In this document: positions 57,011 through 62,706 of the stretch, in pieces
Layout: the number at the start of each line of letters is the position of its first letter
Numbering within the stretch: position 1 is the first letter of the stretch
DNA from: Mayamaea pseudoterrestris
Lineage: Eukaryota; Bacillariophyta; Bacillariophyceae; Sellaphorales; Sellaphoraceae
DNA: 64,000 bases
Reading direction: 5' to 3'
Assembly: GCA_027923505.1 (NCBI GenBank)
Contig: BROI01000003.1
Coordinates: 806,001 to 870,000 of the forward strand
Notes under the pieces: generated by a model
The model's database searches: none
The model's input: the letters and a program-made list of their open reading frames with translations, nothing else
What the model was told of the DNA's origin: nothing
Translations under genes and position numbers: made by a program

Positions 57011-59007
57011 TTACGCGAATTGTCCTTCGCTGTCGTCAATATTGTCGCCAGAGACTTGTAGTGTCAGGCTGTTGCGGTGCAATCCGTCTCCAGCGCTTCC
57101 AGTAGACTGTCGCCGTTGCTTCGTGTAACCCCGAGTTGATGCGACTCGTGCCATGTACAGATAAGTCAATAGCGACCCGACTAAAGCACTCAGTAGGCTC
57201 AGCACAACAACGGCAACATCATCGGAAGGCGTCCGAGTCCAGTCACTCGTTCGTTCTCTTGGGAGTGCAACAAACCCTTTGTCCACCTGACAATTTAGCT
57301 CACGAGTTGCAAACGGTTGAACTTGCGCCACCAATACTTGTGCATCGCAAAGTTGCAAGTCTTCTGAACATCCATCCATCAAGGGCGTCAATATCTTGCC
57401 ATTGTAGAGTAATCGAAAGGCAAAGTCGCTCTTGAATAATATCAAATCGCGGTCCGCCTCCAACTTGTGAATTTCTAGAACCAAGTGGCTCGCATAGGGC
57501 GTCCACTTGCGGTCAAATACACGCGGCCCGAGTGACATGAGCAACGGCATAATGGTTGTGTCATGACCCGAAACAAGTGATAGTTTAATAGTATCTTGCT
57601 TGTTTTCCAAGACCTTGTTGATGCCTTCCATAATCTCGGCCCACAAAAAGCTCATGGACAATTTGGCGTAGGCGGCATCATTGTCCGTTTGTTGTAAAAC
57701 GTAGCCCTTCACATCCCAATCGTATAGCCGCTGAAACAAGTTTTCGCCATAGTCGTCTTCATCATGTAATCGCCGCCGACGATTTTCATCGCCCGACGAC
57801 TCTCGCTTTACACTTGCATCGGCCGACATTGCAACGTCGCTTGTGTAATCATTGACAGCGTCCGGCAGCGTACGATCCGTGCAAATGGTGGTCATGAGAC
57901 AGTCAATGGCGTCCATTTTTTGGTCATGAGGTAGTTGGAGAACGTTGCGCTGAAAGTCAAGCAGCTGTTTGGCCTCCAAGGACGTCATGAAAGACCTGAA
58001 AGATTGCGACGCTCGAAACTCGGTCTCCATTTGTAGCAATCGGGGACAAACCTTATCGTTGGCTCCCAAAATGTCCCGACTACGATCGGCTGTATGAAGC
58101 GGAAGTAACGGATACTCCTGCTTGGCAGCAAAGTAGTTGTCAATCTCTTGTTCAAACATTCCTCGCAGTAAGACTTGACCTGACATCTGCGGGAAAAGGG
58201 TGCGAGTGAGAAGCATTTTTTCTTACTTGTACACAACCTATGTCCTTGCTGCACACGTACAATTGTCCTTTGATCATCATCTGCACGTAACCGGAGCTTA
58301 TCCTTGCTCCAGGGCTGGCTATTGCCTTGAATGCCGTCATCGTCAGTCGTTTCGTCGTTGACTGCAACGTCAATCAGTTGCATTCTCGCATCCGGTTGCG
58401 TCGTGTCATCCTGTTCGTTGCCATTACTACTATCATACACGTACGCCTTTCGAAAGTGCCTGCCATTGGTTATTTGCTGCTCGTAACCTTGAAGTAGCAA
58501 TTGACCCATTTGACAGGTTCCGTTCAAAAGGTTGGTCAAATTGTTCTTTGGATAGACGAGCGAATCGTAATGTTTCTCAAATAGAAACATTGCTCCCGAA
58601 TCTGACGTATCAAAAGACTCTTCTTCTTGCTGCTCCACAACCTTTGGTGATGGCGGAGCCAACCACGTGGTCAGGTCGCAGGACCAGGTTCCAGTATCGG
58701 CATTTGAGTATCCATTCCAGCAGTGCAAGTCACTGGTCCATGGCGTTCTTGCTCCATGCCGAATGACAGCCGTGACATGAGCGAGACGTGATTTTGACCC
58801 ATACTTCTTGCTGTTGTCGAGTGGAGGAATGGATCGCGACTCCATTTGCGATGGTGTCGAGCAGTATGGCGGGTATGCATCGTAACGTTGGTACCATTCC
58901 TCTGGTTTCTTCTCGTGCCATTCGAGTCGATCCGTGTTGGCAGCATTTATTGCCAATGCTATCAAAGCAGAAGCTACAGCATGAAACGAGTTCAAATAAT
59001 GCTTCAT
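57011..59007 (-). CDS. Membrane-anchored histidine acid phosphatase-family enzyme
   Basis: Exons 58261-59007 and 57011-58186 (74-bp intron, phase 0) give 640 aa. The spliced junction rebuilds LRADDDQRTI-MSGQVLLRGMF, the usual DxxRT...SxxxLLxGLF region. A signal peptide (MKHYLNSFHAVASALIALAI) is followed by the catalytic VTAVIRHGARTPW (RHGxRxP) and, near residue 450, the proton-donor motif SGHDTTIMPLL. Late in the protein there is a membrane helix (DVAVVVLSLLSALVGSLLTY, about 590-610) and a short basic tail, so the enzyme is probably type I membrane-bound in the secretory system. The clade includes lysosomal acid phosphatases and xylosyl phosphatase; phytases are more distant. An acidic insert (DSSNGNEQDDTTQPDARM) and another (KRESSGDENRRRRLHDEDD) interrupt the domain. 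Confidence 0.88.
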
Positions 59008-59334
59008 GGTTGTAGAGCCTTTTGCTCCCGCATCGGATGCATATTTCTTTCAAATCTTGATATGTGATGGTCATCGCTTCGACGGAACTTGTTGACCGCG
59101 AATCTCGCGCGAATCGAAATTTGCGCTAATGAAAAGACGTTTCGCAACTGTGAAAAGCAAAAATTAGTTGCGCTACGACATCCACCAGCTGATGCCGATT
59201 CTCTGCGGCCATGAGAAACTGCTCGAGGTTTGTTTACATTCACAAACCATCAAGGACAGCGCAGCCTTTTCCTCTCGCTGGCTTACACTTACTTATAGAA
59301 ACAGACTGGAACAGAGGAGAGCCGTTTACATTGC
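59008..59334. promoter_or_regulatory. Divergent promoter between phosphatase and inositol-synthase fusion
   Basis: 327 bp between the two start codons. No palindromic octamer of the TACCGGTA type and no TATA box is seen. CGCGAATCTCGCGCGAATCG (59097-59116) contains a direct CGCGAATC repeat. Co-regulation is inferred from geometry. Confidence 0.45.
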
Positions 59335-62300
59335 ATGCAGGGAGCCATGAGCCAATCGCCACGCAAACTTCCGCCAAGCCCTCGAGATGCTGGATCAACA
59401 GGCAGCAACAGTACGAGTAGCACCGCCAATCGTCGACTATTTACGCAACCGCCATCTCCAAATCACATCAAGAATCGAACACCTTCCGAAGACACTCTAT
59501 CGGATTCCACCTATTCGGCCGTTTCAGTGACATCAAGTTATCGCCACCATAATTTCCCATTCGCGACGCAAACACCTGCCAAACCGGAACCTGTTCTAGT
59601 CAAGGACTCGAACCATAAACCAAAAACGACTGGATCATTTGGAGTCTTGGTCATTGGACTTGGAGGCGCCAATGGAACCACCATGCTGGCTGGAATACTA
59701 GCAAATCGACGTAACTTGGAGTGGCGTGGTCCCTACGGCGAACATCGGAGCGCCAATTACTATGGCTGCTTGACACAACTAAATCAACGAGGCATTCACG
59801 GCGGCGTTGGCTACAAGGATCGTGTCAAGGGACTCGCAAATGCCAACATGGCGGCGATTGGTGGATGGGATATTCGACCAGCCAAGCCAGGTGATGCACT
59901 CTTGGAGGCGCAAATATTGGACTATGATTTGGTACGACAAGTGCAAGACGAAATGAACAAGACCAAGGTGTTTCGAGGCATTTACAATCCACTATTTATT
60001 GGAGATTCGCAGCATGCGACGGCGACGCATGTCATATCGAAACAGGAAGCTCCGACGGACTCGGAAGCCTTGAAATGTTTGCGCGCCGACATTCGATACT
60101 TTAAATGGCGCAACGGGGTTGTCGGACACACAACCGTCATTTGGAGCGCTAGCGTAGAGCCCAATTGCGACTTGTTACCGAATTATGAAACGGCGGATGA
60201 CTTGCTAGAGGCGATTGAAATGACAGAGGAGGAGCGCGGCGGCCCACTGCCACCGTCAGTACTGTACGCGACGGCGGCATTGCTTGAAGGATGCTCGTTC
60301 ATCAATGGCGGCTCTCAAAATACAGTCTCGTGTCCCGGATTAGCCGACTTGGCCATGCAACAAACGGGTGTGTATTGCTTGGGTACTGATTTTAAGGCTG
60401 GACAAACCAAATTCAAGACGGCTGCTGTTGAGTATTTGCGAACCATGGGATTGAAGCCCCGCGTCATTGCGTCATCCAACCATCTAGGTAATAATGATAT
60501 GCGTAACATTGGATCGGCAAGCTCAAACATTGGAACAGCTAAGCTAAGAGTGAAACACGACATTTTTGCACCGTGGCAGGAAGATGAGTTGGATCATAAG
60601 GTGAGCATTATGTTCACTGAGTTTATCAACGACGACAAGCGCGATTTTGTCGAGTACACAAGTCTTGCCTTCTTGGGGCAACCTCATACCATGGTGACTT
60701 ATACGAGGGCGTCGGACTCGGTCTTGTGCGTCCCACTGATGATTGACGGAGCGGTTTGGTGCGACTTCTTCTCGTCGCGCAGCTGGCCCTACGAGCGAGT
60801 GGCCAAGGCATTGGCGTATCTGTTCAAGGTCCCAGAGGGTTCTGCCAAAGGTGTCGACCCAGGATTCTTCCGCCAAATGCAGGAGCTCGAGGTTCAAGTT
60901 CTGGCCGCGCATGAAGCGAAGCGTGGTAGCTTGAAACGAGAAGGCTCTATAAAGAAGCGAGTCCGAATTCGTCCAGACGAAAAGGTGGCTGAATGGGCCA
61001 TTCCGCATGATGCTCGGATAGTATGCGCTGGATTGGCATGTGTAGATATGCAGCTTAATGCCGCTACTGGTGGCGATGGAGGAGAGGCAATTGAAACTTT
61101 TGCTGGCGAAACATCCATTGGAGGCGGTAGTGTTTCCATGGCATGCAAAACGTTGGCGAGGCTGTGTCACGGAGCTGCTCTCGATGATGGCTACATGCAA
61201 ATCACTCCACCTGTTGTCAGTGCTGTTGTTCCACTTTGCATGGTCGGAACGGACTCGACTGGAGACAAACTCATTGGATTGCTCGAGGACTGCGGCGCTG
61301 CTTGTCGTAACGTTGAGACCAGATTTATCAAAGCCTCGCGATCGAGCGATCCAAACGCTCGCACGGCTCTTTCCATTCTTCCTATTTACCAAGATGGACG
61401 GCGAGGGTGCTTTTTCGACGCCGCCTCGAACGTCACCTTTTCAGCTCGGGAAATGACGCGCTTGATCAGCAACCTTTCCGCTGGGTCCACAAATCCAGAA
61501 TTAGATATGTCTCACATGTCGGCAGATGACGTTGATAATTACCAAGCGGATCTCGAGCAGATGACCCCAATTTACGGAGGCTTTGTCTTTGGGTATCCTC
61601 ACTTGATGCCGAAGATGGCTGGAGAAGCATTGGCGCAAATCCTTCTTGAAGCACGAAGTATCATGATTGAAGGAGGCATTGTCACGATAGACCTCAATGG
61701 GGTTCCACTGGGATCTTTTCCAGTTCGAGATGGTTTGCGTAGTGCGGGGAGTCTAAAATTGGATTCAGTAATTGGGCCTGCTCTCGAGCATGTTGATATT
61801 TTGCACATGAATCAGGAAGAACTATGTCTTTTAACAGGTTGCCATATTGAGGGAACTGCCGATTCATCACGAGAGGATGACTTCATTATTGCTCAAGCTA
61901 TCAATCTATTTCTGCGGTGCGGCGTTGCAGTTGTCGCCGTCACGAGAGGTCAGCAAGGGAGCTTCGTCGTTTGCAACGACGCCGATCGTTTTAAGCAAAG
62001 TCGAGCACTTCCAGCGTCTTGGATAGACTGCAACGCCAAGGTTGGATGTGTACAGTTGCCCAAGAACACATCAATTAATACGAATGGGGCAGGAGATGCT
62101 TTTACCGCCGGACTTTTGGTAGCTGCAATGCTGCGACACACAGGCCTCACAATGCCGAGCGATATTTCGCCTTCTGTTGTAAGCAGTCCGCGTGCGCCGC
62201 CTGCAAGTTCATTGACTCGAAAAGAAACCATTCCTGCAAGTGGCAAGTCCAAGCCTGACAAGAAACTTACACCCTACTCTCTATTCATGAGGGAGCACTA

Positions 62301-62706
62301 CATCTCTTTGAAGAAGAAATGCAACGATGACAAGAAAGCTATCTTTTCGACATGTCATGAAATGTGGGAGAACTTGACGGAACACGAGAGAGATTTGTAT
62401 GAACGAAAGGCGGCGGACGAAAATGAGGACACTGGCAAGCCGGATGCGGTTGCATTGAGTGTATTGACAGACATTAACGTATTAGACTCCACTGATCCGA
62501 AGCACGCACCGAGCCCCAGGGAGTCGGACACTCCCCGCAGTATGTACATGACAAACCGATCATTGACCCTTGAATCGGCCGTAACATTTGCCAGCCTAGT
62601 GGCGGCGTACCACGTTGACGAAAGTACGAGGAACCGACAGCACATTGACATGAGCAAGCTTATTGAGCGAGCTACAGTTGTACCGAAAGGTCTTGAAGAA
62701 ATATAG
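59335..62706 (+). CDS. Inositol-3-phosphate synthase / PfkB-family kinase fusion with inserted HMG box
   Basis: One uninterrupted 1123-aa frame. Residues 1-100 are Ser/Thr/Pro-rich and disordered. Residues about 101-535 are myo-inositol-1(3)-phosphate synthase: [20 protein letters not shown] (NAD site), [59 protein letters not shown] and [14 protein letters not shown]. Residues about 560-965 and 1070-1110 are a PfkB/ribokinase kinase: [81 protein letters not shown] and the anion-hole [16 protein letters not shown] (near 918). Residues about 972-1035 are an HMG box ([20 protein letters not shown] then [20 protein letters not shown]), inserted before the kinase's last helices ([18 protein letters not shown]). 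MIPS converts glucose-6-phosphate to inositol phosphate; the kinase substrate is unknown, with inositol an obvious candidate. Confidence 0.93.

Follow-up and report, generated by a model that had tools for sequence, protein, structure and literature searches.

A diatom protein family joining a MIPS-like domain to a PfkB kinase that carries an HMG-like domain

The locus and the fusion gene

The window, i.e., the whole stretch of 64,000 nucleotides analyzed here (Mayamaea pseudoterrestris, contig BROI01000003.1, positions 806,001 to 870,000), carries on its forward strand an open reading frame (ORF) of 1123 aa at 59335..62706. The ORF starts with an ATG at 59335 (a second in-frame ATG lies at 59347), ends with a stop codon at 62706, and contains no internal stops. 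This single frame (+) encodes three domains: myo-inositol-phosphate synthase (MIPS), PfkB kinase, and HMG box. The frame is open throughout and all three domains are matched by Pfam, which bears out both the coordinates and the MIPS/PfkB/HMG fusion that an earlier reading of this DNA (here, the original prediction) had proposed. The same reading called the gene intron-less; this holds for the present ORF and fails for many relatives, in which introns are suggested because ORF pieces begin near residues 599 to 602 and stop near residue 892.

The MIPS domain (residues 103 to 519; 59641..60891) was delimited by Pfam and by alignment to yeast MIPS. It matches PF07994 at residues 103 to 519 (E value of 7e-61; 206.8 bits against a cut-off of 25) and PF01658 at residues 356 to 462 (E value of 5e-19; 69 bits against a cut-off of 27). 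The linker that follows includes an 11-residue basic stretch (residues 540 to 550; 60952..60984) with the family consensus RVRIR, which could possibly be read as a nuclear localization signal or a docking motif. In place of this consensus, two relatives, P0067 and P0074, have KRSAVRFKES and KRSVKFKES, respectively. The PfkB kinase, taken through the helix after the GAGD motif, spans residues 557 to 937 (61003..62145); its PF00294 match covers residues 816 to 931 (E value of 3e-12; 46.9 bits against a cut-off of 25.8), and its NXXE motif corresponds to N826 and E829. The GAGD motif (residues 918 to 921; 62086..62097) was located on the family alignment. An insertion with approximate borders (residues 938 to 1075; 62146..62559) then interrupts the kinase and consists of variable flanks around an HMG box core (residues 976 to 1031; 62260..62427), which was placed by Pfam, a PDB match, and hhalign. 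The C-terminal part of the kinase, an 18-residue helix, is followed by a conserved tail that ends in EEI (62560..62703, from the family alignment). The tail residues EEI (62689-62703), often GLEEI, are conserved, and E1122 and I1123 are nearly invariant in an alignment of 72 rows, i.e., 72 of the 120 protein matches listed.

The divergent neighbor of the fusion gene is a histidine phosphatase of branch 2 (57011-59007, minus strand), for which PF00328 scored over its cut-off in each of two ORFs that overlap and whose separation may be due to an intron. For one of the two pieces, the best PDB match is lysophosphatidic acid phosphatase type 6. The phosphatase and the fusion gene have in common an intergenic stretch of 327 bp (59008-59334).

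Distribution of the family in diatoms

A protein search returned 167 matches. Among the 120 matches listed, all those with an organism name are diatoms; most of the 120 carry no such name, and the restriction to diatoms refers to the named ones. The organisms named are Seminavis robusta, Epithemia clementina, Nitzschia inconspicua, a Bacillariaceae metagenome-assembled genome, Fistulifera solaris, and Amphora coffeaeformis, to which Pseudo-nitzschia (label Psemu1), Entomoneis paludosa (taxid 265537), and Chaetoceros sp. GSL56 (taxid 947934) can be added. Because several named diatoms have the same combination, the fusion is a real conserved protein; it represents a family conserved in diatoms and no oddity of one genome. 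In a search of prokaryotes with one genome per species and two peptide patterns, relatives were not found. Proteins of about 275 aa that resembled stand-alone kinases were rejected as such, since they start near residue 599 or 602 and end near residue 892, and we read them as exon pieces of the fused gene.

A merger of adjacent genes by assembly or gene prediction would be the trivial explanation, and we give it practically no credence. Nothing was found that speaks for it, the domain order recurs across named diatoms, metagenome ORFs, and entries with a transcriptome label, and the artefact is already refuted by the transcript-derived ORFs that carry the fusion. The original prediction had named transcripts that end or splice between the domains as evidence against a fused protein; these are absent in six MMETSP-labelled entries (P0008, P0030, P0042, P0049, P0067, and P0074), in which the MIPS part, the GAGD motif of the kinase, the HMG box, and the C-terminal helix are joined in one ORF. 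The MIPS part of P0049 is degenerate. Two other MMETSP entries, P0138 and P0141, are partial and have no MIPS part. Their entry numbers are close and their sequences overlap, and P0138 breaks off at the exon border close to residue 892, as if an intron had been retained.

The architecture is already present in databases. Members from JGI (P0016, P0018, and P0045) are named "myo-inositol-1-phosphate synthase/sugar/nucleoside kinase," and the NCBI/UniRef name for the Seminavis and Nitzschia members is inositol phosphate synthase. We searched the titles and abstracts of the literature (preprints and subscription papers were outside the scope) for this combination, diatom inositol synthesis, the MIPS active site, PfkB inositol kinases, and bifunctional enzymes, and none of the records listed describes the architecture. 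The combination of known families is new as well as conserved, and the HMG box is an inserted domain.

The HMG domain within the kinase

The HMG fold appears well supported by several sequence comparisons. PF00505 matches residues 976 to 1031 with an E value of 4e-5 and 24.3 bits in the protein scan, slightly below the cut-off of 25.4, and with 29.6 bits, above the cut-off, in the genome scan. Among 14 relatives scanned, the model scored above the cut-off in P0006, P0008, and P0069; the rest were below it (e.g., P0002, P0026, P0078, P0083, and P0109) or had no match. When the insert alone was compared with the PDB, the best matches were TFAM, an HMG-box protein (E value of 2e-4), and an hhalign comparison of a profile of 11 family HMG cores with 13 other boxes of the genome (of 41 HMG matches listed) gave a probability of 92.6%. 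The Pfam alignment covers the profile up to position 59 of 69, so that the last ten positions are missing and the C-terminal arm of the box is short or absent. Conservation is concentrated in the core: across the 72 rows, the mean majority fraction is 0.68 for the HMG core, 0.21 and 0.31 for its flanks, and 0.70 for the second kinase part.

The original prediction placed the box within the kinase, after the GAGD helix and ahead of the last helices, and this is upheld by relatives without an HMG domain, in which the kinase is uninterrupted. The kinase C-terminal helix is reached by 145 of 250 fetched proteins, and in 138 of these 145 an HMG domain lies between the GAGD helix and the last helix. 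The domain is absent in the other seven (P0084, P0090, P0105, P0110, P0140, P0236, and P0242). When loop length is counted uniformly, starting at the 22nd residue past the Asn of the motif, the gap is closed by 1 to 16 residues in P0090, P0105, P0140, P0236, and P0242; P0084 has a linker of 87 residues, and P0110 keeps 92 residues with an apparent HMG remnant. In the window protein, PfkB is matched as far as profile position 269, against 289 in P0140 and 288 in P0236, neither of which has an HMG domain; in the relative P0078, the match covers profile positions 22 to 269. Since the kinase of the HMG-less relatives runs straight through, the HMG domain is an insertion.

On a kinase tree computed with the insert columns removed (no row for P0242; P0237, P0102, P0081, and P0099 left out), the six absences then known require six changes. 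In this unrooted tree from a quick search, P0236, P0140, and P0084 fall within groups of HMG carriers at well-supported nodes, and P0090, P0105, and P0110 lie on long branches. Canonical MIPS was rejected as a root because the outgroup branch was too long (5.1 to 8.7 changes per site). In P0240 (801 aa), the HMG domain passes the family profile and looks worn by eye, perhaps as a loss in progress.

The charge of the HMG block bears on the proposal, made in the original prediction, that a DNA-binding HMG box tethers an inositol-phosphate enzyme to chromatin. The well-backed fold and the conserved core are what this proposal would lead one to expect, as are the basic stretches in the family consensus (RVRIR in the linker and KK before the box). 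Averaged over 68 family members, however, the HMG block has a net charge of -1.16, and 13 boxes from elsewhere in the genome average +2.31 (Mann-Whitney P value of 1e-5, with members treated as independent despite their relatedness). This low net charge weakens the tether idea, the whole insert is acidic on average (mean charge of -6), and the HMG domain is absent in 7 of 145 members. Charge alone cannot rule out DNA binding, because some other HMG boxes of the genome (L025 to L028) are about as acidic as those of the family. Taken together, we consider the chromatin tether doubtful. The charge and the missing last ten positions lean toward a docking or regulatory role over strong DNA binding for this putative module. 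According to the PfkB fold, the insertion site is near the nucleotide side of the kinase.

The two enzyme halves and their proposed function

MIPS converts glucose 6-phosphate. A search of the 30.6-Mb genome with the fusion protein found two loci, i.e., its own gene and a canonical MIPS, to which the MIPS half has 39% identity in the BLAST match, as a divergent paralogue; in full alignment, 68 family rows have 31 to 37% identity to canonical MIPS. Yeast residues D320, K322, N350, N354, D356, K412, and K489 correspond to residues 352, 354, 382, 386, 388, 435, and 498 of the window protein and are kept. These seven positions are fixed in 67 of 68 rows (the 67 with letters there; four degenerate rows of the 72 were removed first). 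The yeast residue numbers were counted on the alignment up to K412, and K489 was tentatively placed from the yeast sequence and a C. elegans alignment. The position of yeast S323 is Ala in the fusion.

One study describes a cap in known MIPS that brings two catalytic lysines (T. thermophila K391/K395; PMC11348189). Yeast K369 and K373 would be the counterparts of these lysines. In the fusion, the cap is shortened, and a K403/K407 pair is conserved with the same i,i+4 spacing as the known cap lysines. HMMER aligned K403 with yeast K373 and placed no Lys at K369, and MAFFT was off by one, which leaves the match of the pair to the cap lysines tentative. A loss of yeast K369, read from the HMMER alignment, was dropped as a candidate, as the later alignment has a KxxxK pair with the same spacing.

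In a motif test of 239 proteins, 95 spanned the MIPS active-site region; all four motifs are intact in 84 of these, and three or more of the four are lost in the other 11. We therefore judge most members to be probable active MIPS enzymes on the strength of their motifs. P0098 is an additional degenerate case. The kinase tree described above has 139 rows, to 82 of which a MIPS state was assigned. On this tree from a quick search, MIPS degeneration needs three changes, with P0098 set by hand to degenerate and with P0099, one of the 11 degenerate members, which ends near residue 892, off the tree. The degenerate groups are a large clade with P0049, P0083, and others (SH-aLRT of 80) and those with P0032 and P0094 (SH-aLRT of 96 and 95, respectively).

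The kinase does not share this decay. Every relative that extends to the C-terminal helix of the kinase retains GAGD (145 of 145); this set was picked with a profile built from family kinases and is thus no blind sample. The degenerate members keep the checked kinase motifs, with the exceptions of P0032, in which one Gly of GGGSV is changed, and P0099, which ends before GAGD. In seven members of the degenerate clade (without P0049 and P0098), mean identity is 47% for MIPS residues 250 to 480, whereas the kinase and the HMG domain reach 76 and 77%, respectively, and the pairwise difference (MIPS minus kinase identity) ranges from -51 to -1. The order is reversed in 13 hand-picked intact members, with 83% for MIPS, 63% for the kinase, and 66% for the HMG domain. 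Kinase and HMG domains that are conserved beside a degenerate MIPS half are therefore under constraint without a working MIPS.

An alternative is that the MIPS half has no enzyme activity in any member and serves throughout the family as a scaffold or metabolite sensor. The loss of motifs in 11 of 95 proteins and about three lineages, the shortened cap, and the separate canonical MIPS in the genome are consistent with such a role. Against it, MIPS is the better conserved half in the intact members, at 83 against 63%, and its active-site positions are fixed. We consider a universal scaffold or sensor unlikely.

By its motifs, the kinase is predicted to be of the ATP type. No row of the 72-row alignment departs from GXGD (with Ala) or NXXE, and D921 of GAGD is the residue that we take to be the catalytic base. 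ATP-type PfkB kinases are recognized by GXGD with Ala and by the absence of RXGRGD, according to a rule given in PMC5931981. By this rule, the kinase points to ATP and not to ADP or PPi, because it has GXGD with Ala and RXGRGD is absent. Subfamily assignment is less specific. A family kinase profile matched ribokinases, adenosine kinases, and other sugar kinases of the PDB weakly (best E value of 8e-6). No NCBIfam subfamily model scored over its cut-off, the scores being far below every one; the models matching at this level are sugar-kinase types, e.g., ribokinase and hexose kinase.

Plant myo-inositol kinase belongs to the PfkB/ribokinase family. For the myo-inositol 3-kinase MI3K_TK, PMC5931981 gives D12, G26, Q136, R140, and D219 as inositol-contacting residues. 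The structure of this kinase, 4XF7, was not among the 17 PDB sequences found with the family kinase profile at an E value of ≤0.01. D571 and D921 would presumably fit MI3K_TK D12 and D219, but both are general to the superfamily. Inositol as the kinase substrate is thus a guess from the fusion partner.

The ORFs around the other PfkB matches of the genome, inspected by eye, include no obvious myo-inositol kinase. Two of these loci appeared by eye to be joined to other sequences. At L005 (G000:C5:644310-645314 and a downstream frame), a ribokinase-like PfkB ORF continues into a Ham1/XTP pyrophosphatase-like stretch and is perhaps another PfkB fusion of this genome. At L006 (G000:C20:323570-324460, minus strand), a pseudouridine glycosidase-like ORF is joined to a PfkB kinase.

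A PfkB kinase of the hexokinase type could instead supply the MIPS half with glucose 6-phosphate for conversion into inositol 3-phosphate. MIPS takes glucose 6-phosphate (PMC11348189), and the NCBIfam hits, albeit far below their cut-offs, are to models of sugar kinases. Yet the kinase is strongly conserved in a lineage with degenerate MIPS, so that it has a MIPS-independent role, and it matches no subfamily; a substrate-supply kinase seems rather improbable to us. The direct feeding of an inositol-phosphate pool, as the original prediction put it, likewise loses ground with the presence of a separate canonical MIPS and with the loss of MIPS motifs in some lineages.

By sequence, the protein is best described as a divergent MIPS paralogue fused in frame to a predicted ATP-type PfkB kinase, with an HMG-like domain right after the GAGD helix. 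Our preferred reading, to which we give a probability of roughly 50%, is a composite diatom enzyme with a core kinase, a MIPS half that is mostly active and also decaying, an accessory HMG domain, and an inositol-type coupling of the two activities. The kinase would be the constant, essential activity. The MIPS half would be a working synthase in most members, converting glucose 6-phosphate into inositol 3-phosphate, and could decay into a noncatalytic partner. The HMG domain, instead of binding DNA strongly, would be an accessory module for docking or regulation that sits at the nucleotide side of the kinase. As for the coupling, the kinase would most likely have as its substrate a MIPS-linked polyol, of the inositol type or a related one; the protein may then make inositol phosphate, or phosphorylate it further, beside the separate housekeeping MIPS. 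The genome also codes for enzymes of the IPK, ITPK, and inositol monophosphatase families, so that an inositol-phosphate product would find enzymes to act on it.

A more elaborate reading, which we think quite unlikely, is a diatom-specific kinase gated by its HMG domain, with a MIPS half that senses its substrate or NAD state. Such a protein would read glucose 6-phosphate or inositol-phosphate status together with nuclear or chromatin partners, and catalytic loss would leave a sensor or scaffold.

As a conserved MIPS-kinase protein, the fusion is a candidate diatom-specific step. Diatoms are major primary producers whose phosphate sensing is still being worked out. They have SPX proteins, which in yeast bind inositol phosphates (PMC13187674). 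Found from raphid pennates to Chaetoceros and naturally missing from several members, the HMG domain in a catalytic fold lends itself readily to comparative study of what an inserted domain does to an enzyme, and the members in which MIPS has decayed, as it has repeatedly, next to a conserved kinase are natural pseudoenzyme variants.

Each part of the protein can be compared with a known system. Like eukaryotic MIPS (INO1; PDB 1jkf and 9m53), the fusion has both Pfam domains, the NAD-binding one and Inos-1-P_synth, over their cut-offs and keeps most active-site positions; it differs in its shortened catalytic cap, the Ala at the S323 position, the fused kinase, and the decay in some members. 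With the PfkB/ribokinase family, including the myo-inositol 3-kinase MI3K_TK (4XF7), it shares GXGD, NXXE, and an ATP-type GAGD, whereas it matches no named subfamily and carries an HMG domain after the GAGD helix. Its HMG domain has the HMG-box residues of TFAM box B and HMGB proteins (E value of 2e-4 to TFAM) and differs from these in being located inside an enzyme, in its low net charge, and in its short or missing C-terminal arm.
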